Notes under the pieces: generated by a model
Database searches by the model: none
What the model saw: the letters and a program-made list of their open reading frames with translations, nothing else
What the model was told of the DNA's origin: nothing
Shown here: positions 3,000 to 34,097 of the stretch, one piece after another
Position numbering within the stretch: position 1 is the stretch's first letter
Layout: every line of letters begins with the position of its first letter
Program-made: the position numbers and the translations under genes
Origin: a virus
Direction: 5' to 3' (one strand)
Virus record (IMG/VR): IMGVR_UViG_3300042887_002502
Location: 1 to 34,097 of that record
DNA: 34,097 nucleotides

Positions 3000-3013
3000 T
3001 TCTTCTCTTTATC

Positions 3014-5271: not shown

Positions 5272-5276
5272 GCGAA

Positions 5277-5759: not shown

Positions 5760-5764
5760 AAATG

Positions 5765-6121: not shown

Positions 6122-6143
6122 TTATAAGTTTAGTGTAAATAAT

Positions 6144-6183
6144 AAATCCGCACTTAATGTATTATATCATTTAGTGCGGATTT
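6144..6183 (-). terminator. Hairpin between the CTS-type gene and gp55-like gene, likely terminator
   Basis: A perfect 11-bp stem, AAATCCGCACT (6144-6154) paired with AGTGCGGATTT (6173-6183), with an 18-base AT-rich loop. On the minus strand it is followed by ATTATTT, a modest T-rich tail. It lies 24 bases after the stop at 6208, as expected for a terminator. The loop on the minus strand contains GATATAATAC, which could itself be a -10-like element for the gp55-like gene. Confidence 0.6.
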
Positions 6184-6207
6184 GGTTTCGGGAAATTTCC
6201 CTAGTAA

Positions 6208-6858
6208 TTAATCTTCTATCGTAGGGATCTCATCATACCAGCTCTTTTCTCCCTTTTCAGGGGCTTTTACTGCTGGTCTGTAGACTCTATCCGTAGTTCC
6301 AGTTAGGATTTTATTGATTGTCTTGTCTATGGCATCATAGTCTACCTGGGAAGAACCAGAAGGCTCTTGGGTGACTTTTCTCATGATTTGATTGTTTGCT
6401 CCAAGAAGTCTAGTCTTAATAAGTGTTCTAAGGTTTCCGTAGATCTGTCCGTCAGTAAGACCTGGCTTATCAACGCTTCTATTCCAGTCCTGGAGAACGT
6501 CTTTAAGTGTGATAGCAATCACCTCGTCGAACTGTTCGTCGCTTAAGTTTGCCCATCTTCTTCTGAATTCACCATATGCAACAGAGTTGATCAGGTCGAC
6601 AAACATCTTTGCTAGTTTGTGGGTAACTGTTCTAACCGGTCTGCGGGGGTTTCCCAGCATCTTGATATAAACTGTTTCTCCTTCTGCTAGAGATTTCTTA
6701 ACCTCGTCGGCAAGTTCTTTCTGATCGATGAATTTTTTAGCCTCTGAGATAGCTCCTTCAAAGTAGTTATCTGGCTGAACATCAATAAAAAGGGTTTCCC
6801 CTAGGAAAAGTTGTTTACCTTCTAGTAAAAAATCTTCAAATGATCTAACGTTCTTCAT
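6208..6858 (-). CDS. Unknown protein with capsid-targeting-like N-terminus
   Basis: 216 aa, no recognised domain. The N-terminus MKNVRSFEDFLLEGK resembles the T4 capsid-targeting sequence MKTYQEFIAEA, which is cleaved by the gp21 prohead protease after (L/I)-x-E; here L11-L12-E13 followed by G14 would be the cut. If so, the mature protein is packaged inside the head and may be ejected with the DNA. The rest is charged and largely helical, with a basic central segment (GNPRRPVRTVTHKLAK and YGEFRRRW) that could bind nucleic acid, and an acidic end (YDEIPTIED). It starts 2 bases after the stop of the preceding small gene, which has a similar N-terminus. Function beyond possible head localisation is unknown. 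Confidence 0.75.
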   Translation of the reverse strand: MKNVRSFEDFLLEGKQLFLGETLFIDVQPDNYFEGAISEAKKFIDQKELADEVKKSLAEGETVYIKMLGNPRRPVRTVTHKLAKMFVDLINSVAYGEFRRRWANLSDEQFDEVIAITLKDVLQDWNRSVDKPGLTDGQIYGNLRTLIKTRLLGANNQIMRKVTQEPSGSSQVDYDAIDKTINKILTGTTDRVYRPAVKAPEKGEKSWYDEIPTIED

Positions 6859-6860
6859 GA

Positions 6861-7148
6861 TTATTTCTTAGTTTTTCTAGCTTTTTCGTCAGCCTTTAAT
6901 AAAAACTTAACGTAGTCCATTGCTTTAGTTTTGGTTAGTGGATAATCACCGGTTAGATCACATTTGATTCCGTTATCTTTTACCTCGATTGTGCACTTTA
7001 CCCCATCGACGTCTTTCGTCAATTTATCTCCTCTCATGGTGTAACCAAATGCGTTGGTAGCCATGTCGATGAAATTTTTCTTGAATAAAGGGTTTACTGC
7101 ATTAGCAGGACCTTTACCAAATGCTTCGTATAGTTGTAAATTTTCCAT
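6861..7148 (-). CDS. Small unknown protein with capsid-targeting-like N-terminus
   Basis: 95 aa from the ATG at 7148. A longer reading from TTG at 7178 is possible but would place the late-promoter-like motif (7168-7176) inside the gene, so the ATG is preferred. The N-terminus MENLQLYEAF contains L6-Y7-E8 followed by A9, a fit to the T4 gp21 protease rule (L/I)-x-E. The body is a small alpha/beta protein with the pattern DKLTKDVDGVKCTIEVKDNG, then a Lys-rich end (KADEKARKTKK). Two cysteines in the middle (VKCTIE, IKCDL) are not in a metal-binding pattern. It is followed within 2 bases by another gene with the same kind of N-terminus. Function is unknown; a packaged internal head protein is an inference. 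Confidence 0.75.
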   Translation of the reverse strand: MENLQLYEAFGKGPANAVNPLFKKNFIDMATNAFGYTMRGDKLTKDVDGVKCTIEVKDNGIKCDLTGDYPLTKTKAMDYVKFLLKADEKARKTKK

Positions 7149-7167
7149 AGTATGAATTTGTTTATTT

Positions 7168-7176
7168 TTATATATC
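7168..7176 (-). promoter_or_regulatory. Late-promoter-like motif GATATATAA
   Basis: GATATATAA on the minus strand, ending 20 bases before the ATG at 7148. It matches the motif seen before other late genes in this window and resembles the T4 late element TATAAATA. Assignment is by recurrence and spacing only. Confidence 0.55.
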
Positions 7177-7181
7177 AAAAA

Positions 7182-7367
7182 TTATTCTTTTTCGTCTCCT
7201 TCTTCGTCTTCACGAGAAATGAGTGCATCTTCAGACTTTTCTTTTCCGTCTGGAGCTACACTCATCTTTCCTTCTGAGCTTTCTACGTCTGGCTTTGATT
7301 TTTTAGCTTCCTTTTCTTCGTTCTCAGGAGCAAAAGACCAAACCTTACTTAGAGCCGATTTTAATTT
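7182..7367 (-). other. Out-of-frame C-terminal extension reached by -1 slippage
   Basis: The reading frame one base back from the end of the ~980-aa gene stays open from the slippery A-run (7367-7373) to a TAA at 7182-7184. It encodes about 61 residues beginning KLKSALSKVWSFAPENEEKE and ending REDEEGDEKE, acidic and Lys/Glu-rich like the repeat tail of the main gene; it even contains the VAPDGKEK variant of the APE-G-K repeat. There is no start codon and leader suited to independent translation except an internal ATG (GKMSVAPDG). It fills the otherwise empty gap before the next late promoter motif. A true single-base change in the homopolymer would give the same picture. Confidence 0.65.
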
Positions 7368-10300
7368 TTTTTTAGTTCAGGGGAAGGTCTTTCGAAACCT
7401 TCGTTTAGATCGCTAAGCATCTTTTGAACTTCTTCAGAATCTTTATTCTTCATGATGTAGTCTCTGATGTTCGCTAGAGTCTCGTCAAGATTATATCCCA
7501 TTTCTGAGTTAAGCTCATAATCAACTTCTCCGTCTGCACCTTTTGAAGGGGTTTCTGCTAGTTCTGCAGTATCTAAGTTGTCAATGTCTGCCTTATTAGA
7601 AGCTTTAGGATCTAAATATTCAACTTCGTATCCAGCATCTCCTTCTACTTTACCTGGTGAGATAGCGAAGTTAGGATCTGTCGTGTCTTTGGTAGGAACT
7701 TTAGCACCTTTTTCTGGAGCTGTTACTAGTTCAGCTGTAGCTAAATTATCAATCTCCGGGCTGCTAGCTTTAGGAAGGTCAATCTTAATAGCATAGTCTG
7801 CATCGTGCTTTCCGCCTGGGGCTTCAGCTAATCCTGGGCTTAATTTTGAAAGATCAGAAGCTTCGTCCATTTTAGTCTTTCCTGACTCTGGAGCTTCAGC
7901 TAATTCTGCAGTGTTCAAATCATCGATATCTGCATTTTTAGCGGCCTTAGGCTCTGGAGCTTCAACTTTATAGTCTGCTTTTCCTTCTTCTTTTCCAGGA
8001 GCAGATGCTAGATTCATAGCCTTTAGCCCTGATTTTTCCCATTCTGTAGCCATGTTAGTTCCCTTTGGTTTTCCCTCTGGTGCAGCTACTAAAGAATCTT
8101 GAGACTCTTCTAGGTTGTATCCAATCTCGTCGTTAACTTCGTAGTTGGTTGGTTTGTTTTTGCTTTCTGGAGCTTCCTCTAGATTTGCATCTTTAAGATT
8201 CTCAACGTCTTTTTTACCGTCTTGGTCTTGGGTCTTAGCTGAAGGTGCTTCTGCAGTGCTAGCCTTTAGAACCTGAGCTGGAGTTTTACCATGAACTGGC
8301 TTTCCTGATGAAGGTGCTTTAGCTAGTGGTGCATTAGATTCTTTTACTTCTTCTCCTGCTTCTGCATTTTCTTCTGAATCTTTATTGAAGGCATCTTCAA
8401 GATCGATAATATCTTCAACACCAAAATCTCCGGTCTTTCCGCTATCCAATAGAACAGTATAAGAACCTGAAGTTGTATCTACTGAAATAATTTTTCCAGT
8501 GTTTCCGTTTTCTTTTACTTTTACATAGTCACCTACGGTAAATTTAGAATCTTCTAACAAATCATCGTTAATCGAGATGGAGTTGTTTTCGATAGAATCT
8601 AATTCTGCATTGATGGTAGACCACTTAGACTTAAGAACCTGAAGTTCTTTTTCAAGTAGAGAATAAGCATCAGAAAGCTGCTTAGATCCTTTGTAAAGAG
8701 GATTAGTAGCAACTAGAGATTCGATCTTCTGCATTTCAGACTCAACAATTGAAATATTCTCGATCACTTTCTTTCTATCGTTGATCATGATAGATTTGAT
8801 TCTCTTCTCTCCGTCTAAGAATTCGGTTAGACCTTCTGAAATGTCGTATTTCAAAAATTCTTTCACCATATTAACTGCTTGAGATCCGTTAACTGCAAAT
8901 AGAGAATTTTCTCTCATTGCTTCATTAACTCTCTGCAAGAAGATTTTGCCGTTCCATTTAATCAAGCTAACAGAAGCCCCTTCATAAACTTTAGAGATTA
9001 CTGACTTAGCAAAGTCTAGCTCTACCATTTTGTCGAAGTTCTCGTAAAGTCTGATAACGTCAGAGATAACTTTGCTTTCGTTTGTTCCAAGTCCTCTAGA
9101 GATTCTGAAAGAAATCAATTTAGCAAGCTGATTATAGTCTGCAAAATTAGCAAGGTCGTTGTTTAGATAGATCTTAGTCTCGTCATTTTCGTTAACGATA
9201 GAGATCCTAGTGTCTCCAGCATAAACGTGGATTCCCTTTTCGTCAGTCTTAACTGCTTCTGAGTAGAAGGCTTCAAGAAGGCCCAAGAAATCTTTGTCCA
9301 TGTTAGCAATATCTCTATTGGATAGTTTTCTAACCCCTTCCGAGCTTCCTTCGAATAGGGTTTTTCCGATTCCGAAGATGGTCTTATTTCCTTCAACTAA
9401 AACAGGAGAATAGATTTTCTTAACTTCCGAGTTTCCGTTGATGGTTGGAATATTCATCTTAGAGCTGTTAGACTCTAGGACAGTCAATGTGTTGATTAGA
9501 TTTTTAACGATTGGGTTGAAAGACCAAACTCTAAGGTCTCTAGAAAGAGCAGCAACTGATTTACCCTCAGAAACTAACCACTTAGAAATTGATTCCTTAA
9601 CAGGAGAATAGAAATCAGAACTTCCAGCATTAGCAATCTGATATAGGGCTTTAGAAGCCTCAATCTCAGGTCTAAGTGTATTGCAAGACTCAGTAACTCT
9701 ATTTACTGCAGCCTTAACGCTTGCATCCCAAGAATAGTTAGAAAAATCGGAAATGAAAGCTTCAGCAACCCAATATTCAGGAAGGGCCTTATTCTTAATT
9801 AGATTAACGTAGTTCTCGCAAAGGATTTTAAAGCTTCCGTGCTCGTAGATTCCCTTCTTAGAAAGATCCAGAATAGACTCTAGGATTCCTAGCTTCTCAA
9901 CCTGGTTAGAGATCACAAAAGACTCTGCAGATTTATCAAACTGAGCCATCTGACCGATAGCTTCGTTCAAACGATTTTCAATCTCGGTAGTGGATCTTTC
10001 CTCGTCTTTTACCCCGTCGACATAAGATCCAGAGGTCTTAGAGAATCCTTTTCCGATACCTCCCCAAGATTCAGCAAGCATCTTAGCTCTAGATTTAGAT
10101 CTGTCTAGTTCTTCGTTTCTTAAGGCTTCTAGCGGAGAAATTGTGTTCTCTACTTTTGCCTCTATAGCTTCAACTACTTGAGACTCATTGATAGATGTGT
10201 TGCCGTTCTTCAATTCTGAAATGTAGGCTTCACACAGATCTTTAACTTCTCTGGATTGAGTAGTTTCTTTTAGATTTTGTAATTTGTTTATTAAATCCAT
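7361..10300 (-). CDS. Large virion-type protein with KOW-like domain and acidic repeat tail
   Basis: 979 aa, function not recognised. The first ~540 residues are helical and soluble. A segment at about 575-630 (FTVGDYVKVKENGNTGKI, then SGSYTVLLDSG) looks like a KOW/SH3-like barrel. The rest is a disordered, acidic region of degenerate repeats: IDNL.TAEL.EAPE.G occurs three times, GYNLEES/GYNLDET twice, PGK.EG.A.Y.VE twice. The N-terminus MDLINKLQNLKET could carry a weak (L)-x-E cleavage site. An AGGA box lies 4 bases before the ATG, and two late-promoter-like motifs precede it. The gene ends at TAA in an A9 run (7365-7373); a -1 slip on A-AAA-AAA would extend it by about 61 residues to about 1039. 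A hairpin (GAAGGT/ACCTTC, 7383-7402) lies just before the slip site. A major head or internal protein is plausible. Confidence 0.85.
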   Translation of the reverse strand: MDLINKLQNLKETTQSREVKDLCEAYISELKNGNTSINESQVVEAIEAKVENTISPLEALRNEELDRSKSRAKMLAESWGGIGKGFSKTSGSYVDGVKDEERSTTEIENRLNEAIGQMAQFDKSAESFVISNQVEKLGILESILDLSKKGIYEHGSFKILCENYVNLIKNKALPEYWVAEAFISDFSNYSWDASVKAAVNRVTESCNTLRPEIEASKALYQIANAGSSDFYSPVKESISKWLVSEGKSVAALSRDLRVWSFNPIVKNLINTLTVLESNSSKMNIPTINGNSEVKKIYSPVLVEGNKTIFGIGKTLFEGSSEGVRKLSNRDIANMDKDFLGLLEAFYSEAVKTDEKGIHVYAGDTRISIVNENDETKIYLNNDLANFADYNQLAKLISFRISRGLGTNESKVISDVIRLYENFDKMVELDFAKSVISKVYEGASVSLIKWNGKIFLQRVNEAMRENSLFAVNGSQAVNMVKEFLKYDISEGLTEFLDGEKRIKSIMINDRKKVIENISIVESEMQKIESLVATNPLYKGSKQLSDAYSLLEKELQVLKSKWSTINAELDSIENNSISINDDLLEDSKFTVGDYVKVKENGNTGKIISVDTTSGSYTVLLDSGKTGDFGVEDIIDLEDAFNKDSEENAEAGEEVKESNAPLAKAPSSGKPVHGKTPAQVLKASTAEAPSAKTQDQDGKKDVENLKDANLEEAPESKNKPTNYEVNDEIGYNLEESQDSLVAAPEGKPKGTNMATEWEKSGLKAMNLASAPGKEEGKADYKVEAPEPKAAKNADIDDLNTAELAEAPESGKTKMDEASDLSKLSPGLAEAPGGKHDADYAIKIDLPKASSPEIDNLATAELVTAPEKGAKVPTKDTTDPNFAISPGKVEGDAGYEVEYLDPKASNKADIDNLDTAELAETPSKGADGEVDYELNSEMGYNLDETLANIRDYIMKNKDSEEVQKMLSDLNEGFERPSPELKKN
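7500..8350 (-). repeat. Degenerate coding repeats (APE-G-K / IDNL-TAEL units)
   Basis: Within the ~980-aa gene, the protein repeats short units: DIDDLNTAELAEAPESGK, EIDNLATAELVTAPEKGA and DIDNLDTAELAETPSKGA, alternating with PGKEEGKADYKVE / PGKVEGDAGYEVE and YEVNDEIGYNLEE / YELNSEMGYNLDE. At the DNA level the copies have diverged, so this is a protein repeat rather than an exact DNA repeat. Confidence 0.75.
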
Positions 10301-19355: not shown

Positions 19356-19934
19356 TTATAGGAACTGATCCTGCCAGTAGTCTGCCTTCCAGCTAGTTTC
19401 TAGGGTGTAGAGGTTTTCCCCTGCATTATAATCTAGATTCATTGGGTTGATGTTTGCTGTCAAGAAGCAGTTGTTTAGACTAATTCTTCTGAAGACATCT
19501 CCTTGCTTATTAAAGATGGAAACCACGATAGATCCAACGTAGTCTTTCTTTATGCCCATTGCACCTGTCAATGGATTGTAGATCAGATCTGCCCATTGTC
19601 TCATGATTTTATAGACGATCATCGAGTTCTGTTCGTTTAAGTTTACTTCAAATTGTATGTTGAATGCAACTGAAGTATCTGCCGGAGCACCTCCCGCATA
19701 TCTTCTCTCTGCAAACTTATAGAACTGGCTAGAAACTCCGCCCGGCTGAATGTCAACTGCAAGTCCAGAGATTGATTTCACCTGTTGGGTTAAAATTCCC
19801 TCCCCTCTGAATCTGGTGTTAGCTAAAGTAACACTTGCTGGTGGGGTAACTAAAACCTCAAACTGGTTGAGATAAACTGGTTCGTATAGTTTTACGCCTG
19901 CCGTTGAGTTTGTAAAATGTGGTAATCCTGCCAT
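19356..19934 (-). CDS. Tail tube protein, second copy (T4 gp19-like)
   Basis: 192 aa, forming the inner tube through which DNA passes inside the contractile sheath. The sequence repeats the layout of the copy upstream: MAGLPHFTNS, YEPVYLNQFEVLVTPP, the ring-forming region, QWADLIYNPLTGAMGIKKDYVGSIVVSIFNKQGDVFRRI, then a W-rich end (TSWKADYWQDQFL). T4 gp19 is 163 aa. The extra ~10 residues over the first copy lie at about 35-65 (SVTLANTRFRGEGIL). It begins 14 bases after the stop of the first copy, with AAAGAGAA before ATGGCAGG. Both copies look functional. One may be the tube and the other a tube-end or completion protein. Confidence 0.92.
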   Translation of the reverse strand: MAGLPHFTNSTAGVKLYEPVYLNQFEVLVTPPASVTLANTRFRGEGILTQQVKSISGLAVDIQPGGVSSQFYKFAERRYAGGAPADTSVAFNIQFEVNLNEQNSMIVYKIMRQWADLIYNPLTGAMGIKKDYVGSIVVSIFNKQGDVFRRISLNNCFLTANINPMNLDYNAGENLYTLETSWKADYWQDQFL

Positions 19935-19948
19935 TTCTCTTTGTTATT

Positions 19949-20500
19949 TTATAGGAATTGATCGTCCCAGTAGTCTACTGCCCAGGTCATAGTAACGTTA
20001 TAAATATCAGTAGCCTGATAATCTAGCTCCATTACTGTTAGTGGAGAAGTAGGGAAACAGTCTTTACAGGTAATCCTTCTGAACACGTCCCCTTGTTTAT
20101 TGAAGACCGAAATAACGATGGATCCAATATAGTCCCTCTTTACTCCCATTGCACCAGTTAGAGGATTGTAAATCAAATCCGTCCACTGTCTTAGTGTTTT
20201 AAACACATACATCGAGTTAGCATCATTTAAGTTGACGGTAAAACTAAGAGACAAATCAAATACTGTCCGATCCGGCTTTGCACCAGCATAGTTTCTAACT
20301 GCAAACTTATATCTCTGCTCGATTGGTGCAGGGGTCTTATCAACTTCTAAACCGCTGAGGTTCGTTACCTGCTGAACAAGAATTTGGCCGCCCAAAACCG
20401 GTCCTGGAGGGGTAACTAGAACCTCGAACTGGTTGAGGTAAACAGGTTCGTAATTGTTTATCCCAAACAGTGAATTTTGATAATGTGGTAATCCAGCCAT
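19949..20500 (-). CDS. Tail tube protein, first copy (T4 gp19-like)
   Basis: 183 aa. Tube monomer with MAGLPHYQNS, NNYEPVYLNQFEVLVTPPGP, NANSMYVFK-type helix (NDANSMYVFKTLRQWTDL) and the conserved IYNPLTGAMGVKRDYIGSIV, followed by FNKQGDVFRRITCKDCFP and an aromatic C-terminus (YWDDQFL). It directly follows the sheath gene as gp19 follows gp18 in T4. The leader includes GATAAATAT, a closer match to T4 TATAAATA than the other motifs here, 23 bases before the ATG. Sequence identity with the second copy is high in the N-terminal 30 residues and in the loop from IYNP to FRRI, and lower elsewhere. Confidence 0.93.
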   Translation of the reverse strand: MAGLPHYQNSLFGINNYEPVYLNQFEVLVTPPGPVLGGQILVQQVTNLSGLEVDKTPAPIEQRYKFAVRNYAGAKPDRTVFDLSLSFTVNLNDANSMYVFKTLRQWTDLIYNPLTGAMGVKRDYIGSIVISVFNKQGDVFRRITCKDCFPTSPLTVMELDYQATDIYNVTMTWAVDYWDDQFL

Positions 20501-20560: not shown

Positions 20561-23500
20561 TTACGCAAACTGGATAAATCCTCCTGCTGCGATACCTCCG
20601 GTTCTAGTAACAGTAATTCTGTTGATGAACTTCTGGATTCCTCTAGCAGGTTCAAGAATTACGTCGATGATACCGATGTTTTGATCGATTACTGAAGGAG
20701 GGTTGTTTGAAGCATCCATGATTACTTGGTAAGCATAAATTCCTCCACCAGATCTAACCCCGTCAAGGTAGTTGTCCACCAGAGTCTTAATTTCAAGTCT
20801 GATAGAATCCTCGTTGAAGTCGAACAAGTAGTTAGAAAGAATCTGTTCTACATCGTTCTCTACGCTGATCAGTAGGTCTCTCACGTGAACTAGACTGAAT
20901 GCAGAATTAACTGTCTGGTAAGCAGTCTGGTTACCGAAGATAACAACTCCAAGTCCTCTCTTTTTGATGATTGGGTTGATACCGAAAGGCTCTAACCATC
21001 CTCTGTCTTCTAGTGTAAAGTCGTATTCAACTCCAACTAGGTTGGTTCCTGCGATTGTTCCTCTCTTCTGACCTGCCACGATAGCGTAAGGTTCTCCGTT
21101 TGCAAACTTAGCAACGAAGTTGTTAGATACAAATGCTGCTGGCGGAACGTTTACGTTTCTGTTGTTCTCCCTTAGTGTAATATAAGGGGAGTAGTATGCT
21201 GCGTAAGAAGCACCTAGAGCCTGAGGGGGAAGTGAGAAAGTATACGTTGGGTTTAGAGAAAGATTACCTCCGTCTGCAATATACTGGGTTTGTAGAGATG
21301 GATACGGATCAACTGCAGTAGGTGCTGCGGTAAATCTGGGATCTACAGAAGCCTGGAATTGAGCCATCGAAGGAGCATTGATTAGGGCAAGAGCTTGTCC
21401 TCTCATCATAGCCAATTTACTCAACTGGTATTTAGAGTTAGGAAGAATTACTCCGCTGAATGTATCAACGATGTATCTGAACGAGATAACGTCCTTAGTT
21501 GCAAGAGTTGCTGCAATGTTCGTGTTGTACATCACATCTAGAATTGCCTCTACTCTAGCATCAGTTCCATTTGGTCTGTGGAAGTCGTTGAGCTGGAATC
21601 CGTCCAGGTAAGTAAAGTCGAACGATGTAGTAAACTGAGGGATAGATTGGAACTTTTGAACTTGAAGTCCGGTATTTCCCCCCGAGTAGAAGTAGATAGG
21701 TCTTGCAGTTGTTACTGTTACAATGTTACCCAAAGATGTGGTAGCCACCGAAGTAACCTTAGTCAGCCTCTGCTGTCTGTTGGTGTTCTCGATTTGGCAT
21801 AGATCTTGGTCGGTAGAAACTAGAAGATCCCCTACAGAAACAGTAAATAACGAGCTGTCCATCTTAAATGATGTAACGCTAGTCTTTCCTGCGATTCCCC
21901 CGTTAACGTCGATGTATTCATTAATACTTCCGATCGAAGAAATGATATTTAGCTTATTTGTTGCAGGGAAACCAGCGGTTGCACCTGTGTTGATAGAAGG
22001 GAAAGAAGCACCAAAATTAGTGATAGCTTCTAAAGTATTACCAGATCTAGAAATGTTAGTGTATCCAAATGCATAGTAGATTGAATATTGGTCCCTATCA
22101 ACGTCTTGGTTATACGAAAGGTATTGAAGATTAGTTCCTAAGTCATTCTGATAAATCGTATCTCCGTCCTGCAGTTCCGCATAAAGAACATTCTGATAGA
22201 AAGGGGTTGTAAGTTGTCCAACTAGTGCATTAGCATATCCTGTCGGTGCAGAAGATGAGGTTGCCCCAGTTCCTCCTGGTCCTAGTGTGAATTGAATTCC
22301 TAGAGAATCGGAAGCACCGAACTGGTAAGTTGCAGTTGCTCCAATGTCACCGGTAATACCGTAAGGTGCATAAACTGTAGTTCCGTAATCTGAAGCGTAA
22401 GGGGTTACTACAACTCCGAGATTTCTATATTGGGTAGTGTCCAGAGGGTGAGTAAATGCAATCTGAAGATTTCCATTAACCTCATTAACATTGGCAACTT
22501 TAAGTTTTACTAGATCACCTTGGGAGAATTGATTTATAACGGAACCTGTTAGTCCTCCAGGGAGAGTCGTGATTTGCCCAACCACATAAGGATTGTAGGT
22601 AGACGTAGGGGTTAGGAAGTCCTTAAGGTCTAAAAGATCTGCTGCAGACATTCCAGAGAATGGTCCAGATGCTCCGGTAACCCCAATCAAGAAGTGAAGT
22701 CCTGCAACGTATAGGTTGGGATTATAAGGTTGGAATCCATACTCAGAAATACCAGCAGTTCCACCAAAAGTAGCGGATGGCTTGAAGCCAGGAAGACAGT
22801 ATAGACTACCGACCGGTCCAGTTTCTCCTGTCGAATCGGTTAGAATTGAATAGTTCTGGGTGTAAAGATAATCCTGTAGTAAGTTCTGGTCATAAGACAA
22901 GAAATTAAGCTTAGCATCTTGAATATCTCTATCTCCTGAAAGCTCGTCAATCAAGTGGTTTCCAACTAAATCCACTTTATATGGGTTAGTACAGAGATTT
23001 TCTAGGGCTTGCTCATCAACTGCACAGAATAGGCCGTTACCTGGTGTGTTGTTGTTGATCAGGGTCTGAATGTATTCGTTATTACCATTCAGGTTGACAA
23101 AGTCAATAATTAAACATCCGGTTGTAATGGAAATGATCTGAACGTCCTGTTGATTCAAGAAGTTAGTCATCTGACTCTTGATGAATCCATTAGGCGTAAA
23201 GAAGCTGCTCCACTGAGGATCTTGGGAAAGAGCAACATAGTCGGTCCAGTCCCCTGCAACTGCAATTACATCAATAAACCAATCTGAAATATAGTCATAA
23301 GGGTTAACATAGGACGGAACGTTTCCTGCTCCATACCAGTCGATTGCAAAAATATCATATCCCTGTAGGGGAGGATTAGCATCTGTTGATTTTCTAACTA
23401 TAACAGACATAGCAGTAGAACCAAGGTTTACCAGGTTGAAGATTCTTCCCTGATCCACGATAGATCTAGTTGCCAAGAAATACTGTGTATCTGCATACCA

Positions 23501-23920
23501 GAATCTCTCTTTATTATAGTATGATGCCAAAAGCTTATCTCTAAGGATTCCGTTTGGCTGCTCAGTGTCTACAGAATACCCAAAATAAGGGGTTTTATCT
23601 GCAGTCGGACTGCTCTCGTCGCTGTTGAGTCTAAGTAGATTCAGAGCGAAGACTGGACCTGCGTTTAGACAGGTGAAGATAGATCTTTGGAAGAAAGAAC
23701 CCTTCGCTTCTAGTGTTCTGTCGATGTCCCCGAAGATAGCCAGAGCTGTCGTTACATCAGGGATGTACACAGGAGCATTGAAAGGACCTTTATTAGAGAA
23801 TCCCACGATCAGACGAATCGTCTGAGTTGTTAAGATGACGTTCGCTGACGCATCGAACTCCAAGGTATAAACTCCAGAAGCTTTAAATTGGGATAAATCA
23901 AGTTTGACTTTTTGTGCCAT
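20561..23920 (-). CDS. Contractile tail sheath protein (T4 gp18-like), oversized
   Basis: 1119 aa against 659 aa in T4 gp18. The N-terminus (KLDLSQFKASGVYTLEFD, then IVGFSNKGPFNAPVYI and FFQRSIFTCLNAGPVFALNLLRL) and the C-terminal ~300 residues (IAGTNLVGVEYDFTLEDRGW, RLEIKTLVDNYLDGVRSGGG, IGIIDVILEPARGIQKFINR) are typical of sheath. The extra mass is in the middle, roughly residues 350-700, with Gly/Thr-rich patches such as TGETGPVG, GVTGASGPF and GPGGTGATSSSAP; it probably forms surface domains on the outside of the tail. Preceded by two late motifs (23944-23952, 23992-24000). Position between gp17 and gp19 is the T4 order. Confidence 0.93.
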   Translation of the reverse strand: MAQKVKLDLSQFKASGVYTLEFDASANVILTTQTIRLIVGFSNKGPFNAPVYIPDVTTALAIFGDIDRTLEAKGSFFQRSIFTCLNAGPVFALNLLRLNSDESSPTADKTPYFGYSVDTEQPNGILRDKLLASYYNKERFWYADTQYFLATRSIVDQGRIFNLVNLGSTAMSVIVRKSTDANPPLQGYDIFAIDWYGAGNVPSYVNPYDYISDWFIDVIAVAGDWTDYVALSQDPQWSSFFTPNGFIKSQMTNFLNQQDVQIISITTGCLIIDFVNLNGNNEYIQTLINNNTPGNGLFCAVDEQALENLCTNPYKVDLVGNHLIDELSGDRDIQDAKLNFLSYDQNLLQDYLYTQNYSILTDSTGETGPVGSLYCLPGFKPSATFGGTAGISEYGFQPYNPNLYVAGLHFLIGVTGASGPFSGMSAADLLDLKDFLTPTSTYNPYVVGQITTLPGGLTGSVINQFSQGDLVKLKVANVNEVNGNLQIAFTHPLDTTQYRNLGVVVTPYASDYGTTVYAPYGITGDIGATATYQFGASDSLGIQFTLGPGGTGATSSSAPTGYANALVGQLTTPFYQNVLYAELQDGDTIYQNDLGTNLQYLSYNQDVDRDQYSIYYAFGYTNISRSGNTLEAITNFGASFPSINTGATAGFPATNKLNIISSIGSINEYIDVNGGIAGKTSVTSFKMDSSLFTVSVGDLLVSTDQDLCQIENTNRQQRLTKVTSVATTSLGNIVTVTTARPIYFYSGGNTGLQVQKFQSIPQFTTSFDFTYLDGFQLNDFHRPNGTDARVEAILDVMYNTNIAATLATKDVISFRYIVDTFSGVILPNSKYQLSKLAMMRGQALALINAPSMAQFQASVDPRFTAAPTAVDPYPSLQTQYIADGGNLSLNPTYTFSLPPQALGASYAAYYSPYITLRENNRNVNVPPAAFVSNNFVAKFANGEPYAIVAGQKRGTIAGTNLVGVEYDFTLEDRGWLEPFGINPIIKKRGLGVVIFGNQTAYQTVNSAFSLVHVRDLLISVENDVEQILSNYLFDFNEDSIRLEIKTLVDNYLDGVRSGGGIYAYQVIMDASNNPPSVIDQNIGIIDVILEPARGIQKFINRITVTRTGGIAAGGFIQFA

Positions 23921-26625: not shown

Positions 26626-29217
26626 TTACTTTCTGTTGGCAAATTTAGGAAGCTTGAGCTTCGGCTGGGCGTTGTCTATAATGTGAGCCAGCTGGGCATC
26701 TCTAACGATGTTCTGATTCAAGACTATGGACTGCTTGTCTATATCTATCATCTGCTTAAATAGTCTAATATTGCTGATGAAGAGAGGAGAGGTCATTACC
26801 TTATAAGAATTGTTGTCAGTTCCATAGTATGGGCTGTTCAGATCAGTGTTCAGATCCGGCTCTGCAGCAAAGGTATAAGGGGCAGAAAGGGATCTAACGT
26901 ACTCGTGCACATTGATCAGACTGCTGGACTGCTCCTGAGGATTGGTTGGATCGTAGGACATCTCCCACATGTTGATCGCAACCTGTTTATATTTGTTGGA
27001 AACGTTAACGACCATCGCATACCAATCACCAAATACTGGTGTAAACTGAAGAGGGGAGTTGATGATTAGATCATTTAGAACAACCTCAACACTGCCTACA
27101 CCCAGGTAGCTAGAATTAGCGGGCTCGTTGACCCCAGAATGGATTATGTCGATCCTAAATCCTTTTACGGATCCGTTTGTGCTAATATACAATCCATTCA
27201 AGAAGTTTCTGGCCTGGGCCTTCTGCATCCTCCAGGCAGATCTATTCTGAGCCATCGGCATATTTGGGTTAGCAACAGAGAATTGGAATTCGTTGATAAC
27301 AGATCTAACTCTAAATCCACCTGTGTGGTTTGCATCTGCCGAGATGGCAACATACCCTTCTGGATTTTCCGAGTAAGATCTCCACTGCTGAAGTCCGTGA
27401 CGATAAGGGTGTGTGCTATAGATAATCTTGGTGTCGTCCTGAGAAACGACCGTGATAGGCAGAGAAGGGTATGCCTTCTTAGTCATCTTAGATTGATCGA
27501 AGTAGTTTCTAATGTTAAACCAAGCAGTGTAAGCTAGCTCACCGGCCTCTGTTAGAATAGGAAGGGTTCTATACCTCACAGCTTGTCTGTATTCCGCAGG
27601 ATCGTAGATAAACTCTGCATTGTACTGGAACGAGTCGGACATATCGTAGTAGTGGTTGAACACGATCGTCCAGTTGTTGTTTAGATCATATCCAACTATC
27701 GGAAGGTCGTTGTAGAGGTAAGACCGGGTTGGATCTGGATCCCTGTTCTGGGTGCTGGTGACGTACTGCTGAGGTTTGGTCAATTTCTCCTCCTCTGCTA
27801 CAGTCTCCGCTCCGAATAAGGTCTGAGAATTTAGGGCAATTCCATCCAGCTGCTCCTTGTATGCTGGATCGTTGTAATAGGTATTGGACTTTGGCTGGTA
27901 CTTCTTCAGTTCAATCTTGAAGTAGACTGGCGAGTACATAAAGTCTCTGAAGAGGTACATCGAGTTGATCTCATAAATTCTGTTGGTCAGAGGGAAGTAG
28001 ATGATGTCTCTTTTTCTAGGTTGGGCACCCCTCCCGAAGAAGGACTCAAAGTAAATCTTATCGATGTGGATCTCGAATGGCTCTTCAAACTGGAGACCGA
28101 ACGGATCGAAGTTGATTTTATTATCTGGAAACTGGTTCTGCGGAACCATCACCTTGACGCACTTCTCATCGACGACGTCGTAGAGGGTAAACTCTTTTAG
28201 GATCACATCCTTAGATCTCGACTGGGCTTGCACAGAATAGTAGTTTACTTCCCATCCAAATAGTTTATTGACAGAAAGGCTGAGGTCCTGATATAGATTG
28301 AGTGCAGAGTTTACTGCGTATGGATTAAATGTTATCTGGGTACAATCGGTATTGAAGACGACCGGGCGGTTACTCCTCTCTTCTGAGCACGAAGGAACAG
28401 GCTGTCTAATAATTTCGTTAGTTGGATCAAATGGAAATGCATAGGTGACATCCAGATTGAAATCGACGATTATCACTGTTGGAGAGATTGGCTGATCACC
28501 TTGGTAGGCTATAGTTCCGTCGTTGTTTCTGACCGTCGAGGTGAATCTAAATTCAGGATAGAAGGGCTGATCTGGATTTAGCTCAATGATAAAAAGGTTG
28601 GACTTCTCATTAGAGGTATTGGACTGAGAAATACCGGTAAGAGCAGTTCCCACGTTGGTCCAGAGGGACCAGGTTTCCCCGTCGACAGAATATCTAAAGT
28701 CGATAGAAATGTCTTGCGTGTCTAGATCGACTGGATTGGCAGACGTGTTTAGACAATCAATGATCCACCCGTTTAAAGAGGAGACGTTGCGATAGGGCTT
28801 GTCCCAACTGAGAACCCTATAACTTCCTATGTAGGTGAAGTTCAGTGCAGAGTCGATCTGCTCCTTTCTAAGGGCGAGCCATTCTGCTCCAGTTACATTT
28901 ATTATTGGCCCGGTTGGTCCAGTCGGACCCGTAGTTAAAAATCCATTCCCGCAGGGTGCATAGTAGTAGGCGGTTCCTCCTTCGGGATAGGGAATACCCT
29001 GAATGTGATATCCGTTGCATCCAATCTGGGCTGCTCTAGCTAGAGCTCCTTCTACCGTGGTAAATAGATCGTCGGTCGAGGACAGAGGTGGCTTCGCAGT
29101 ATTTGGAAGATCATCGGCATAGGCATACCTCGGATCGGTGATATCGTACTGCTCTCCGTTTCCGTTGTAGACCGGCTGTCCTTCTTTAGGAAATCTATTG
29201 TCTGGGTAAAATGTCAT
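26626..29217 (-). CDS. Large virion protein with collagen-like patch, possible tail/neck fibre
   Basis: 863 aa, no membrane segment. N-terminal ~90 residues include a YPEGGTAYYYAPCGNGF segment, then a short collagen-like TTGPTGPTGP. The middle is beta-rich (DISIDFRYSVDGETWSLWTN, a F5/8- or fibronectin-like appearance). About residues 640-800 have the pattern of a concanavalin/LamG-like jelly roll (RNFLNGLYISTNGSVKGFRI, SYLGVGSVEVVLNDLIINSP, DWYAMVVNVSNKYKQVAINM), which often binds glycans. In T4 the genes before gp16 encode neck proteins; here a much larger protein takes that place. I cannot name it. A role as virion structural protein, neck collar or fibre, is inferred. Late motif 31 bases before the ATG. 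Confidence 0.75.
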   Translation of the reverse strand: MTFYPDNRFPKEGQPVYNGNGEQYDITDPRYAYADDLPNTAKPPLSSTDDLFTTVEGALARAAQIGCNGYHIQGIPYPEGGTAYYYAPCGNGFLTTGPTGPTGPIINVTGAEWLALRKEQIDSALNFTYIGSYRVLSWDKPYRNVSSLNGWIIDCLNTSANPVDLDTQDISIDFRYSVDGETWSLWTNVGTALTGISQSNTSNEKSNLFIIELNPDQPFYPEFRFTSTVRNNDGTIAYQGDQPISPTVIIVDFNLDVTYAFPFDPTNEIIRQPVPSCSEERSNRPVVFNTDCTQITFNPYAVNSALNLYQDLSLSVNKLFGWEVNYYSVQAQSRSKDVILKEFTLYDVVDEKCVKVMVPQNQFPDNKINFDPFGLQFEEPFEIHIDKIYFESFFGRGAQPRKRDIIYFPLTNRIYEINSMYLFRDFMYSPVYFKIELKKYQPKSNTYYNDPAYKEQLDGIALNSQTLFGAETVAEEEKLTKPQQYVTSTQNRDPDPTRSYLYNDLPIVGYDLNNNWTIVFNHYYDMSDSFQYNAEFIYDPAEYRQAVRYRTLPILTEAGELAYTAWFNIRNYFDQSKMTKKAYPSLPITVVSQDDTKIIYSTHPYRHGLQQWRSYSENPEGYVAISADANHTGGFRVRSVINEFQFSVANPNMPMAQNRSAWRMQKAQARNFLNGLYISTNGSVKGFRIDIIHSGVNEPANSSYLGVGSVEVVLNDLIINSPLQFTPVFGDWYAMVVNVSNKYKQVAINMWEMSYDPTNPQEQSSSLINVHEYVRSLSAPYTFAAEPDLNTDLNSPYYGTDNNSYKVMTSPLFISNIRLFKQMIDIDKQSIVLNQNIVRDAQLAHIIDNAQPKLKLPKFANRK

Positions 29218-29325: not shown

Positions 29326-29949
29326 TTACCATACCCATCGACCTGAATAATTTGCATCTATAAATTTATTTTTAACACAAAGATACCAGCCAAATTTAAA
29401 GTAGGTCGAAATTACGGTATAGCCCATCTTTTTTAACATCTCAATTGAAGATTTTGTCATCTCTTCGGTGTACTCTGCTGGATTTAGCCAATCATGAAAA
29501 CTAATTATAATTTGATTTATTTTAGAAAAATCGGTTTCATCTAAACTATCCAGAAAAGAATATTCAGAACCCTCGATATTAATTTTTAGTATCGAGACTT
29601 TATCAATATCAAATTTTTCACAAAATGTTTTCCACGAAAGCATTTCGTATAGGTCTTTTTCATTTCCATCGATATTATAGTTTACTCTTCCCCCAATTTC
29701 ATTATTATTTGGTTTGTCCATTTTAACTTTAGCATCCGATGGACCTAAAACTCCTTTAAATAACTCGGCACCATTTGGAGTTGTTTCTTCAAATGGATCA
29801 ACACCAATTACTCTCTTCATACCAAGCCAATAATTTGACCAATCCCAATATAAACACCCCAAATCTACTATACACCCCTCGCTGTCTACCGAATTCCAGT
29901 CAAAAGTTGACCAAAATTCTCCTTTTATCGTTTCTTCTAATTTAATCAT
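29326..29949 (-). CDS. FkbM-family methyltransferase
   Basis: 207 aa. SAM-dependent O-methyltransferase, usually acting on sugar hydroxyls. Motif I is IVDLGC (residues 27-32), followed by RVIGVDPFEE (about 46-55) for the acidic ribose contact, and the FkbM signature VSILKINIEGSEYSFLDSL at about 118-136. C-terminal INQIIISFHDWLNP is also typical. It starts on the stop of the previous gene (TAATG), so it is translationally coupled to the heptosyltransferase-like gene and may methylate the sugar that enzyme adds. FkbM assignment is confident; the acceptor is unknown. Confidence 0.85.
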   Translation of the reverse strand: MIKLEETIKGEFWSTFDWNSVDSEGCIVDLGCLYWDWSNYWLGMKRVIGVDPFEETTPNGAELFKGVLGPSDAKVKMDKPNNNEIGGRVNYNIDGNEKDLYEMLSWKTFCEKFDIDKVSILKINIEGSEYSFLDSLDETDFSKINQIIISFHDWLNPAEYTEEMTKSSIEMLKKMGYTVISTYFKFGWYLCVKNKFIDANYSGRWVW

Positions 29950-31121
29950 TACAGTAAATGTTGGATTTGTTCAATTACCATTTCCGGAGTAATTGATTTA
30001 TGACACTCAAACTGTCTTTCGGTTCCTTTGTGTTCGGGACACCAATACCAGTCACCCTTGTCAAACTTAAACATTGGGTTATTCCAGCATCCGTTACAAA
30101 CTTTATCGTTTGTAATTCGGGTGCAGTTGAGGGTAAATTCATGGTCAGATTCGGTAAAATTAGAAATCATAACAACATGCTTACCTAATCCCCAACTTAA
30201 CCAGGAGAGTCCGCTAGATAGTCCAATTACAAACTCACTGTGATGAATTACGTTCATAGTGTTCTCCATAGAATCGTCCTCTAGATTAATAGCACCTTCT
30301 ACCTTGTCACCGTCTTTTGAAATATTGATCACCTTGTAGTCTAAACCATTAAGGTATTTTACTAGTTCAGTCCACCCGTTGGGATTATTCCAGAGCTTGC
30401 ACCCTGCAGTCGAGTTTGTTGCAACACAAACGTACTTCCCGTTGTAAGGTCTTTCTTTTGGGTCAAAATAAATATTGGATTGGATTTCTTTAAAATCTAA
30501 CCCAAGTATATTGGTTATTGATTTTTGAAGAGGTACCGATGAAGGATACTCGGGTTCTTTCTCCTTATCATAAAACCATCCTATATTGAACATTGCGTGA
30601 ATATTATGAACCACACCACCAGGAGGAACAAATGTTATGCTGGGATATGATTTTTCAAATAGGAAATTCTTAAAAGTGGAGACGATCAGTTCGCATTCGT
30701 TAATTTTTCTAAACTCCTCGCAGTAAGGCACCCACGAAATTGTATCTCCCAAAGACGATGAGTCGAATGCAATGTAAACCCGCTTACCCTTAAAATTAAT
30801 TGTTTCCTGTGCAATCACGGTTGAGTTATAATGGATCTCATATCTTATCCCATTGTAATATCTTCTGTTTAATCTAGAATACATCCCACCCTTTAACGTT
30901 GTTTGGTAAAGCGGGGTATTATCTCTGTCAAAAATTTTAACTACGAACTCTTTATCGCTATCAGAGCTAAGGCTCAAATAGAATCCTTCAATGTGATTCC
31001 AATTGATGGAGACCTTTGGTAACGGTTCATCTCCAAAAGAAGTTATGTATTGATCTCTAAATTCCAAGCCCGATGGTGAGGACGTGTCATACTCAATATC
31101 GTTGATTTTTAAAATGTTCAT
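29949..31121 (-). CDS. BAHT-like protein O-heptosyltransferase
   Basis: 390 aa. Resembles the bacterial autotransporter heptosyltransferase family (Aah, TibC), which attach ADP-heptose sugars to serine residues of surface beta-helix proteins. Visible: beta-rich N-terminus (about 35-110), AFDSSSLGDTISWVPYCEEF (119-137) with D120/D126 region of the catalytic centre, NSTAGCKLWNNPNGW (246-260), GLSSGLSWLSWGLGK (300-314) for nucleotide-sugar, and four cysteines C342, C345, C361 and C373 in C-x2-C-x15-C-x11-C, matching the iron finger of TibC. It is 3 bases after the epimerase gene and overlaps the FkbM gene by one base. Such enzymes are rare in phages. The donor may not be heptose here. Confidence 0.85.
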   Translation of the reverse strand: MNILKINDIEYDTSSPSGLEFRDQYITSFGDEPLPKVSINWNHIEGFYLSLSSDSDKEFVVKIFDRDNTPLYQTTLKGGMYSRLNRRYYNGIRYEIHYNSTVIAQETINFKGKRVYIAFDSSSLGDTISWVPYCEEFRKINECELIVSTFKNFLFEKSYPSITFVPPGGVVHNIHAMFNIGWFYDKEKEPEYPSSVPLQKSITNILGLDFKEIQSNIYFDPKERPYNGKYVCVATNSTAGCKLWNNPNGWTELVKYLNGLDYKVINISKDGDKVEGAINLEDDSMENTMNVIHHSEFVIGLSSGLSWLSWGLGKHVVMISNFTESDHEFTLNCTRITNDKVCNGCWNNPMFKFDKGDWYWCPEHKGTERQFECHKSITPEMVIEQIQHLL

Positions 31122-31124
31122 AAT

Positions 31125-32114
31125 TTATTGCCAATATTTGTAAATATTTTTATCGACTTCATAATTCATATTTTTAATCATTCTATTTGGTTGAGACATT
31201 GCCCAAATAAACAAATTTTCAATTAATTCATTAATATTTGTATTATCTGTAAATTTTAAATCTTGAATTGCCTTTGTGTGGTCGCAATAAGCGTGTTTAA
31301 CCTCATGTCGTTCCTCCCCATATTCTATATTTGAATGATAGCCAAATTTAATACCTATATTTTGAACCCTAGTTGCAATTTCATTTATTGAATAATATTT
31401 TTCAGCACCGATATTATATGTTTGATTGTCAAATTTTAAAATTAAATTTTCAAAAACTTCCATGTAATATTTTACATCTGAAAATGCTCTTGTTTGTTCG
31501 CCATCACCATATATCAAAATAGGTTCACCATTTAATACTCTTCTAATAAAAATACCTATTACATTTCTATACCTATCCCAAATATTTTGATAAATTCCCA
31601 ATACATTATGAGGTCTAATTATATTATATTTTAATCCAAATTGATTATTAGCGGATATTATATCTTGCTCCACTGAAAATTTTGCAATACCATATGGGTC
31701 AATTGGTGATGGTACCATGTTCTCATTAAATGGTGGTATTTGTTTCCCGTAAACTGCCATAGATGACGTAAACACTATTTTAATATCTCTTTGTATACAA
31801 TGATTTATTAAATTAACTGAGGAAATTACATTGTTGGTATAATTGAATTTACGGATAAATGGGGATAGACCTTCAGCGGCATAAGCGGCAAAATGAAATA
31901 CACAATCAATATTATGAGTATTAAAAATTTCATTTAAATCTGAAGTTTCTAGATTTAATTCGTAAAATTTAAAATTTTCATTAGTCGGTAGAAAATCTTC
32001 ATATCCACCAAAAAAATTATCAATACCAATAACTTTATATCCTTTAGATAAAAGATATCTAGAAAAATTGGAACCAAGTAATCCCGCGCACCCTGTAATT
32101 AAAATTTTTTTCAT
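31125..32114 (-). CDS. NAD-dependent nucleotide-sugar epimerase/dehydratase
   Basis: 329 aa extended SDR enzyme. Rossmann motif GCAGLLG (G8, G11, G14), D32 region (GIDNFFGG) for NAD ribose, FHFAAYAA, the catalytic S118 region in TSSMAVYG and Y141-x3-K145 (YGIAK). RPHNVLG and the substrate loop after it are as in UDP-glucose 4-epimerases and related sugar epimerases. It would prepare a nucleotide sugar for the glycosyltransferases next to it; which sugar is not readable. The ATG overlaps the previous gene's stop (ATGA, 4 bases). Codon use is strongly AT-biased compared with the phage structural genes, suggesting recent acquisition. Confidence 0.93.
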   Translation of the reverse strand: MKKILITGCAGLLGSNFSRYLLSKGYKVIGIDNFFGGYEDFLPTNENFKFYELNLETSDLNEIFNTHNIDCVFHFAAYAAEGLSPFIRKFNYTNNVISSVNLINHCIQRDIKIVFTSSMAVYGKQIPPFNENMVPSPIDPYGIAKFSVEQDIISANNQFGLKYNIIRPHNVLGIYQNIWDRYRNVIGIFIRRVLNGEPILIYGDGEQTRAFSDVKYYMEVFENLILKFDNQTYNIGAEKYYSINEIATRVQNIGIKFGYHSNIEYGEERHEVKHAYCDHTKAIQDLKFTDNTNINELIENLFIWAMSQPNRMIKNMNYEVDKNIYKYWQ

Positions 32115-32872
32115 TTATTTTTTGTTATTTTATAAAACTCTGGTGACCATCTGCATAAATCTTCGTTAAACGAAAGGTCTTTGAACGTTAAATTTAATTT
32201 ATTAAAATTATTTCTGTCGTTATCCCCACTATCTACCCTACCTTTTTCTGGTGTGGTTGAAGATAAAAAATGTATCATTGGTGAATTTAAGATATATGCA
32301 CCTTTAAAACCTGAGGAGTAAAGTTTTGAGTAAATGTAATCATCCCCAAAATAAAATATCAAATTATTAGGAATTTCGTTATAATTAGACTTTCTAAAAA
32401 ATAAATCCCAGCCTTGCCTGTACGGGGTTTCCATAATAACATATTCTAAATTTTCGTCCCAGGATGAATAATTTTTATTATTTGTAACGTGGTTAACAAA
32501 CCCAACTGATGGTTCTAAGTCCATAACAGAAATTGATGAAGATAAAAAATTTGGTGATAAACGAACATCATTATTAAGTAAACAAATAAACTCAGTATCG
32601 GATTCTTTAACAAAATCATTCCATACTTGATTTACTGGTTTATTATAACCAGTGTTATAAACACTTAAAACATTTATTTTACCATAAAATGAACCATTTA
32701 AATGATTATCAAATAACAAATTTAAATAATCCCAAGTACCTTCTTCAGTACTATTTTGGTCAATTATGGTTAGATTAAAAGGAACATCCTGTAATAACAA
32801 ATCCTCAACACATTGTTTTGTATATTCTAATGTATTTAAGTTTATAATTAAAATTGATATATTAATATTCAT
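32111..32872 (-). CDS. Family 2 glycosyltransferase
   Basis: 253 aa GT-A fold enzyme. ISILIINLNTLEYTKQCVEDLL opens the fold, TIIDQNSTEEGTWDYL holds the nucleotide-binding acidic residue, and FICLLNNDVRLSPNFL has the DxD-like NND (N100-N101-D102). Later EYVIMETPYRQGWDLFFRK and IFYFGDDYIYSKLYSSG are typical of rhamnosyl/N-acetylhexosaminyl GT2 enzymes, with a GDDD-type acid near the active site. No membrane segment, so cytoplasmic. It starts 5 bases after the methyltransferase stop and overlaps the epimerase start. Very AT-rich codons. Donor and acceptor are unknown. Confidence 0.92.
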   Translation of the reverse strand: MNINISILIINLNTLEYTKQCVEDLLLQDVPFNLTIIDQNSTEEGTWDYLNLLFDNHLNGSFYGKINVLSVYNTGYNKPVNQVWNDFVKESDTEFICLLNNDVRLSPNFLSSSISVMDLEPSVGFVNHVTNNKNYSSWDENLEYVIMETPYRQGWDLFFRKSNYNEIPNNLIFYFGDDYIYSKLYSSGFKGAYILNSPMIHFLSSTTPEKGRVDSGDNDRNNFNKLNLTFKDLSFNEDLCRWSPEFYKITKNK

Positions 32873-32877
32873 TGTCT

Positions 32878-34097
32878 TTAATTTTTAAACCAAAAAATAC
32901 CACAATTATCAATTACTTGTATGTCACTATGAATATTTTTTTCATTTCTAAAGTCTGACACTGCTTTTACACAATTTGGTAAACAATAATCATCAATAAT
33001 TATCACACCATTAGATGACAATTTATCATACAAATTAGTCAAAACATCAATTGTAGACCCATACATATCTCCATCACATCTACATATAGATAAAGATTTA
33101 ATTTCATCATTATTGTGTAAAGTGTCTGAAAACCACCCTTTAATGAATTTTACTTTGTCGTCTAATAAACCATATATTGAAAAATTAGAGATTACATCAT
33201 CTAATGAAACATTTAAATAATCATTAGTGTAATGAGTGTCTCCGATATCTTGGGGGTATTTTTCTAAATCAGGTTTTGGTAGACCTTCAAAAGAGTCACA
33301 AACAAAAACTTTTTTATCCATTTTATAAAAATCTAAATATGCTTTCATAAAAATTGTTGCACCGCCCCTCCACACACCGGTCTCAATTAAATCCCCATCA
33401 ATGTTATTAATTCTAATATAATCCATCATCTTATGTAAATTATTTAATCTTTTAAGACCAATCATCGTGTGTGCTCTGACTGGCCAATCAAGACCTTCTA
33501 GTCTATCATTTGAAATAGGTTGTAATAAAGAATTTTCCATAATATCATAATTTGGATAACTATTTTTGAAGAAATTAGTGTAGGATAAATCATCTAAACT
33601 ATCAGTAAGTATTCTTTTTAGGAAGTTTAATTTTAAAGAAATATTTTTATCCTCATAAAAAGGTTTATCTAACCAGCTATAAAAATTTTTATAATCAATT
33701 AGGTTTAATGATGATTTTCTATTTTTATCAAAAATAGAAAATTCATAATATTCATTTTTGTCATTACATAATTTTTGAGACCCCCTTTTAATCAAACCAA
33801 CACCCCAATCACAATCAATTACACACATATCTAAATTAGGGTTAGTACATCTTAATTTATAAAAGGATTTCCAAACAGTACCATTCCATATACCCATTGC
33901 TGGAGTATCATGATTTGAATAATCCTCTCTAGCATGATGTAGAGTTGGTGGATTACAGTCATGAACAACAATAATTCCATTTTCAGAAAGGTGATTCAAG
34001 GAGTTTGTAATATCCCTCTCAACTTGGTATGACAAATGAAGTCCATCAATAAAAATTATATCCCATTTATAATTAGGATCTTTATCTAAACTACCGG
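32878..34097 (-). CDS. Two-domain methyltransferase, 5' end outside the window
   Basis: The frame is open to the window edge, so the start lies beyond 34097; a TTG at 34035 is not the true start because DIIFIDGLHLSYQVERD, a conserved methyltransferase block, spans it. The first part is the C-terminal half of a class I SAM methyltransferase (Methyltransf_24-type, FIDGLH, GIIVVHDCNPP, WNGTVWKSFYKLR, DWGVGLI). The second part, about the last 200 residues, is a TylF/MycF-type sugar O-methyltransferase (DLIETGVWRGGATIFMKAYL, VFVCDSFEGLPKP, RCDGDMYGSTIDVL, GVIIIDDY). Such fusions are seen in glycan clusters. Strong AT bias, as in the next two genes. The catalytic domain functions are inferred from family. 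Confidence 0.87.
   Translation of the reverse strand, partial: GSLDKDPNYKWDIIFIDGLHLSYQVERDITNSLNHLSENGIIVVHDCNPPTLHHAREDYSNHDTPAMGIWNGTVWKSFYKLRCTNPNLDMCVIDCDWGVGLIKRGSQKLCNDKNEYYEFSIFDKNRKSSLNLIDYKNFYSWLDKPFYEDKNISLKLNFLKRILTDSLDDLSYTNFFKNSYPNYDIMENSLLQPISNDRLEGLDWPVRAHTMIGLKRLNNLHKMMDYIRINNIDGDLIETGVWRGGATIFMKAYLDFYKMDKKVFVCDSFEGLPKPDLEKYPQDIGDTHYTNDYLNVSLDDVISNFSIYGLLDDKVKFIKGWFSDTLHNNDEIKSLSICRCDGDMYGSTIDVLTNLYDKLSSNGVIIIDDYCLPNCVKAVSDFRNEKNIHSDIQVIDNCGIFWFKN

Follow-up and report, generated by a model that had tools for sequence, protein, structure and literature searches.

A TibC-family glycosyltransferase in the sugar island of a T4-like phage and its association with Gly-(Ser/Thr)-Ser collagen-like fibers

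The IMG/VR virus record IMGVR_UViG_3300042887_002502 was analyzed over positions 1 to 34,097 (the window, 34,097 nucleotides), which ends in a cassette of five minus-strand genes (29326-34097). One of these encodes a predicted TibC/Aah-family protein O-glycosyltransferase of 390 amino acids (29949..31121, minus strand). We consider it reasonably likely that this enzyme belongs to a phage branch of the family that O-glycosylates the proline-poor Gly-(Ser/Thr)-Ser collagen-like shafts of the phage's own tail fibers, and that the cassette forms one end of an exchangeable island in a large T4-like phage. The grounds are family membership and fold, catalytic and iron-finger residues, exchange of the island between relatives, and a specific genomic association with Gly-(Ser/Thr)-Ser fibers; from these we infer the acceptor, the order of the sugar steps and a stabilization or shielding of the triple helix by the sugar.

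Family, fold and conserved residues of the enzyme

The 390-residue protein scored 281.9 bits, and 281.2 in a second scan, against TIGR04414 (autotransporter O-heptosyltransferase; NCBIfam, curated cut-off 200) and matched TibC (4RAP) with 33% identity (phmmer, E = 1.4e-51). Its AlphaFold2 (AF2) model had a predicted local distance difference test (pLDDT) score of 89. The best Foldseek match was again 4RAP (about 370 columns, template modeling (TM) score 0.79-0.80), and the model superposed on TibC over the full length, N-terminal barrel domain included. The TibC catalytic base Asp110, the phosphate-binding Thr226 and Lys230, and Trp305 all have their equivalents in the window enzyme, where Asp126 is the catalytic residue and Lys242 and Trp307 follow (own numbering). 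The iron finger reads exactly C-x2-C-x15-C-x11-C (Cys342/345/361/373), and was aligned with TibC Cys339, 342, 358 and 370. The original prediction, made from the sequence alone, had described an enzyme resembling TibC/Aah with this finger and had proposed a structure prediction against TibC; both the resemblance and the metal-finger cysteines were recovered.

Across a family alignment with 60 phage-type homologues, the Asp, Lys and Trp were invariant, the Thr was present in 57/60 (Ser in 3), and all four finger cysteines were kept in 59/60. TibC-fold protein O-glycosylation chemistry is therefore well supported for the window enzyme. Two departures from the usual architecture were seen in other phages. 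The TibC-like enzyme of L463 (9521-10654), which lies near a 1491-aa collagen-like open reading frame (ORF), retains the catalytic residues and has lost all four finger cysteines (P, Y, Y, K). The TibC-like gene is followed, immediately or at a short distance, by a second paralogue of only ~295-312 aa in L003 (11181-12068), L005 (8175-9113) and L041 (7192-8088); these short copies are without the N-terminal barrel region, and the aligned L003 copy has retained the catalytic Asp together with the finger cysteines.

Association with Gly-(Ser/Thr)-Ser arrays

The association was examined in reverse: contigs no shorter than 20 kb were selected solely on a DNA pattern, blind to the enzyme, and were then scored for TIGR04414. 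The family was found in 22/50 contigs with an eight-unit Gly-[S/T]-[S/T] pattern, and in 0/39 contigs with (Gly-Pro-Thr)5 and 0/38 random contigs (Fisher P = 4e-7 for each control comparison; 1.6e-5 when restricted to contigs of 100 kb or less). An equal per-base rate would have given 11.0 and 12.1 enzyme carriers in the two control sets. GT2, taken as a general island marker, was equally common in the Gly-[S/T]-[S/T] and (GPT)5 contigs (12/50 vs. 9/39), so a general effect of a fiber plus a glycosyltransferase island does not account for the association. The 18 enzymes from array-chosen contigs formed 17 clusters at 60% identity and thus do not represent one clone. Of 11 contigs of 60-249 kb, 8 had their nearest array no more than 10 kb from the enzyme, where random placement would give 2.4 (combined P = 0.002). 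Among random viral loci, a Gly-S/T-S array was present in only 1/131 (1.24 Mb).

Collagen-type repeats (PF01391, whole-record scan) were detected in 24/30 enzyme-bearing records, and the neighbors of TibC-like homologues that carry a fused GT4 domain in front included a 3195-aa ORF scoring 1208 bits against the Pfam collagen repeat. The units are almost free of proline, both near the closest enzymes to that of the window (61% GSS, 33% GTS) and near the fused enzymes (50% GSS, 39% GTS); the next nearest enzymes (83% and 76% identity) are also on contigs with GSS/GTS arrays. The array proteins are fibers, carrying the N-terminal domain of the major tropism determinant (Mtd_N, PF18454) or Peptidase_S74, a chaperone domain of tail fibers and spikes, and they match PHROG tail-fiber and collagen-like minor-tail families. 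Long uninterrupted Gly-X-Y arrays in such proteins were found in relatives, and the window itself holds only a (GPT)3 insertion.

The same pairing was seen within the lineage defined by the neck protein encoded beside the cassette. GTS/GSS arrays were present in four sampled phages with the enzyme; where a phage without it showed an array, this was of the GPT type. In one sister pair both traits are switched together: L049 has no enzyme and a GPT-type array, and L050 has the enzyme and a GTS/GSS array. A scan of genome contigs gave one bacterial relative of the phage type, in Polaromonas (L064). Beside this chromosomal TibC-like gene lies a 102-aa ORF (9130-9438, minus strand) for a predicted lipoprotein, in which G-[TS]-[SA] repeats come after a lipoprotein-type signal; this is an independent hint to a Gly-Ser/Thr-Ser substrate class.

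The enzyme and a Gly-Thr/Ser-Ser fiber also occur together in the Microcystis phage Mel-JY01 (L036, PP395634.1). Its plus-strand fiber ORF (1-3052, 1016 aa) runs off the start of the record, and the annotated minus-strand coding sequences WWT39286 and WWT39287 appear to be its antisense shadows. WWT39291, annotated 'methyltransferase FkbM', has the TibC-like enzyme as its C-terminal part.

Several observations weigh against fibers as the general acceptor. No enzyme was found in 28/50 array contigs, nor in the array-bearing random contig L126/G099 (152 kb), where one was expected. Conversely, 6/30 enzyme-bearing records gave no collagen match (three of these are fragments of less than 24 kb), and the lineage members G022 and G024 carry the enzyme, their 51 and 89 kb of sequence showing no clear array. 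Proximity is not universal, as the array is more than 10 kb from the enzyme in G116, G119 and G114, and the fiber gene of the window phage would lie outside the window. The evidence is a genomic association in records that are mostly fragmentary, and confounding by host or lineage was reduced by the controls, not removed.

Two other readings bear on this association. The cassette might instead change the host surface (lipopolysaccharide, capsule or S-layer) and so block superinfection, which is the usual interpretation of aquatic phage glycosyltransferases in passages of PMC7029224, and GT2/GT4/GT9, epimerase and methyltransferase genes are typical for the synthesis of surface polysaccharides. 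We regard this as unlikely, because TibC-family enzymes are protein O-glycosyltransferases and not lipopolysaccharide enzymes, the pairing with Ser/Thr-rich fibers would be left unexplained, and family scans of the cassette genes revealed no membrane flippase or ligase; a virion target is likelier than a host target. Alternatively, enzyme and arrays might be found together for no other reason than that a single ecological or taxonomic group of large aquatic phages is rich in both, and it is true that many of the records are large contigs and that some array contigs are without the enzyme. This too appears rather improbable given the diversity of the enzymes (17 clusters among 18), the sister pair that switches both traits, the proximity within contigs, the Polaromonas lipoprotein and the equal GT2 rates in the control set.

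The sugar island and its neighbors

Glycosylation of the fiber shaft would draw on the other cassette genes, which from the contig end inward encode a double methyltransferase, a GT2, an epimerase, the TibC-like enzyme and an FkbM methyltransferase. All are on the minus strand and are separated by overlaps or gaps of a few bases (1-base overlap at 29949, 4-base overlap at 32111-32114), as the original prediction of five tightly packed genes had it. The gene at 32878..34095 combines an N-terminal methyltransferase-like part with a C-terminal TylF O-methyltransferase (PF05711, 273.4 bits; PF13578 in two stretches). Its frame is open at the contig end and its 5' end is missing; the cassette therefore extends past the window. 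The GT2 glycosyltransferase (32111..32872, 253 aa; PF00535, 33.4 bits) is presumed to extend the glycan. The NAD-dependent nucleotide-sugar epimerase/dehydratase of the SDR type (31125..32114, 329 aa; PF01370, 148 bits; phrog_540 nucleotide-sugar epimerase, 191.6 bits) presumably makes the donor sugar, and it fell under the cut-off of every specific NCBIfam equivalog. The FkbM-family methyltransferase (29326..29949, 207 aa) scored 31.0 bits against PF05050 (cut-off 22.7), and in the sibling L041/G021 a homologue (79% identity) likewise stands immediately after the TibC-like gene. The earlier assignments were retained with one correction: the fifth gene, previously given as one methyltransferase, holds two methyltransferase-type parts and is incomplete.

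The cassette adjoins a T4-like structural module of neck/Hc2 protein, terminase and sheath. The G+C content of the cassette genes (0.27-0.38) is well below the 0.42-0.45 of the neck, terminase and sheath genes beside them, which fits the expectation for an acquired island. The boundary is formed by a T4-gp14-like neck (Hc2) protein of 863 aa (26626..29217, minus strand; phrog_679, 5.8e-10). In L005 and L041, the neck, terminase and sheath are 93-99% identical to those of the window, yet quite different genes occupy the cassette site: other glycosyltransferases and methyltransferases, a TibC-like enzyme of 53-57% identity, and the second, shorter paralogue described above. In distant relatives (neck identity 58-59%), a TibC-like gene (36-39% identity) again immediately precedes the neck gene. 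Variable genes in a constant backbone point to a modular hypervariable island in which a TibC-like enzyme keeps recurring. The earlier view of the cassette as a phage sugar-modification unit is upheld.

The nearest sibling with enough sequence is G021 (neck, g258, terminase and sheath 93-97% identical). Its genes lie on one strand in the order gene for a 281-aa Mtd_N-(GTS/GSS)39 fiber, two short genes, sugar island, TibC-like enzyme, FkbM, three genes and neck gene. As the window contig ends inside the island, its own fiber gene, if present, would be found past position 34097. In the backbone relative L044, where neck identity is 80%, a gene between the island and the neck gene (5275-9948) encodes 1557 aa with PKD and CHU_C domains, the latter a type IX secretion signal, which suggests a Bacteroidota host.

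The position of the enzyme gene next to the neck/sheath module, in the window and in relatives, could also mean that it acts on these adjacent-encoded major virion proteins, the sheath and the 863-aa protein that had been named as targets from the sequence alone. The window neck protein does have a (GPT)3 insertion, and the sheath has short GxTGxxG stretches. By alignment and tree, however, the neck protein is kept in relatives both with and without the TibC-like enzyme, which makes a dedicated acceptor unlikely, and terminase and sheath are likewise kept in enzyme-lacking relatives. Furthermore, the (GPT)3 insertion is missing in enzyme-bearing siblings, and most enzyme homologues are in unrelated phages, where the common feature is the Gly-S/T-S fiber. 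We therefore hold this reading to be quite unlikely and did not retain the two proteins as targets.

The neighbors showed some features of their own. The neck protein insertion (26626-29217) comprises 12 residues including (Gly-Pro-Thr)3, is absent from the 96%-identical L041 sibling, and is possibly a newborn collagen-like tract; the AF2 model of this protein was too poor for use (pLDDT 45). At 1119 aa, the sheath (20561-23920) is unusually long; only its last part gives the match to the sheath C-terminal family, and the short GxTGxxG tracts lie in the inserted region. Downstream of it, two adjacent homologous proteins (19356-19934 and 19949-20500; 57% identical), kept as a pair in relatives, are probably the products of duplicated tail-tube genes.

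Donor sugar, proposed function and known systems

Arg286 of TibC contacts the adenine, which explains its preference for ADP (ADP-heptose), and is described as highly conserved (PMC4358343). At this position the window enzyme has Thr, so heptose is not established as its sugar, and the 'heptosyl' label applied earlier was dropped as unproven. Arg was found in 10/60 phage-type homologues (non-Arg in 50/60) and in 6/6 classical Burkholderiales sequences. Heptose supply in cis was sought in the phage records: GmhA (TIGR00441) was above cut-off in one only, a huge phage, and RfaE domain II (TIGR02199) in none of those searched, so that a phage-made ADP-heptose donor was considered unsupported. Three of five classical loci (L470-L472) adjoin AIDA-like ORFs with 23-26 [VIL]xxGG repeats and have no Gly-X-Y arrays, and no beta-helix autotransporter neighbor is present in the window cassette. 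The analogy with glycosylation of autotransporter beta-helices was abandoned accordingly, since the enzyme tracks a Gly-(Ser/Thr)-Ser collagen-like fiber encoded outside the window. The protein is placed in TIGR04414 and is not filed as an autotransporter heptosyltransferase, because it has neither Arg286 nor an autotransporter neighbor. In a 61-sequence tree without a resolved root, the classical enzymes including TibC grouped in a single clade (support 99), and the phage sequences around it were more diverse. That phages captured a true autotransporter-type heptosyltransferase acting on host beta-helical adhesins is very improbable: TIGR04414 membership and the retained Asp, Thr, Lys, Trp and four Cys agree with it, but the classical sequences are a separate clade, Arg286 is conserved throughout them, and AIDA-like repeat ORFs lie next to three of their five loci; the window enzyme has neither the Arg nor such a neighbor.

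If the acceptor is the fiber, encoded at the opposite end of the island, the TibC-like enzyme would attach a first sugar to Ser/Thr hydroxyls of the shaft while the fiber is still in the host cytoplasm and virions have yet to assemble. The epimerase would provide the sugar donor, the GT2 would add onto the first sugar, and the FkbM and TylF-type enzymes would O-methylate and so cap the glycan. The dense Ser/Thr glycan may then stabilize or shield a triple helix nearly without proline. As a wider and more tentative proposal, phages could hold a large, diverse TibC-family branch that glycosylates proline-poor Gly-Ser/Thr-Ser collagen-like fibers, the sugar replacing proline/hydroxyproline in triple-helix stabilization, with the bacterial autotransporter heptosyltransferases as one clade within it that may derive from the phage branch.

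The fiber reading predicts a concrete substrate for widespread phage glycosyltransferases, for which DNA or host polysaccharide is the usual guess, and would widen the range of the TibC family from the virulence autotransporters where it is known to collagen-like fibers of virions. It also suggests a route to long triple-helical fibers almost without proline or hydroxyproline and, if true, a glycosylation tool for recombinant collagen-like materials. A search of the open-access literature joining collagen-like, phage and heptosyltransferase found no such report, subscription journals being outside its scope. In aquatic phages, glycosyltransferases and tail fibers or collagen-like proteins are described in variable regions or core genes (passages of PMC7029224, PMC10202952 and PMC12619734); there the glycosyltransferases are assigned to the host surface, DNA or the virion in general, and these passages do not name the TibC family or the Gly-S/T-S pairing.

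With the bacterial autotransporter heptosyltransferases (BAHT) TibC/Aah (TIGR04414; PMC4358343), the window enzyme shares the full-length fold, the equivalents of Asp110, Thr226, Lys230 and Trp305 and the four iron-finger cysteines, as well as the predicted Ser/Thr O-glycosylation of a repetitive surface protein. Functional BAHT are marked by the use of ADP-heptose and by a dodecameric assembly. The window enzyme differs in being encoded by a phage, in its 33% identity and in the change of Arg286 to Thr, and many of its phage relatives are fused behind GT4; BAHT pair with beta-helix autotransporters, whereas the phage relatives pair with collagen-like fibers. That collagen-like proteins of bacteria and viruses can be glycosylated, by other enzymes, has precedents in BclA and mimivirus L230. 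The collagen-like BclA spore filament of Bacillus is glycosylated, and its sugar has been proposed to stabilize helix hydration (PMC8968730); a sugar on a collagen-like Gly-X-Y protein is common to both cases, here as a prediction, and the proline-poor Gly-Ser/Thr-Ser tail fibers and the TibC-family enzyme set the phage case apart. Mimivirus L230, a collagen lysyl hydroxylase/glucosyltransferase, glycosylates a viral proline-poor collagen-like protein (PMC9614988), but it resembles animal GLT25D1 and adds glucose to hydroxylysine, and so differs from the phage system in both enzyme and acceptor residue.

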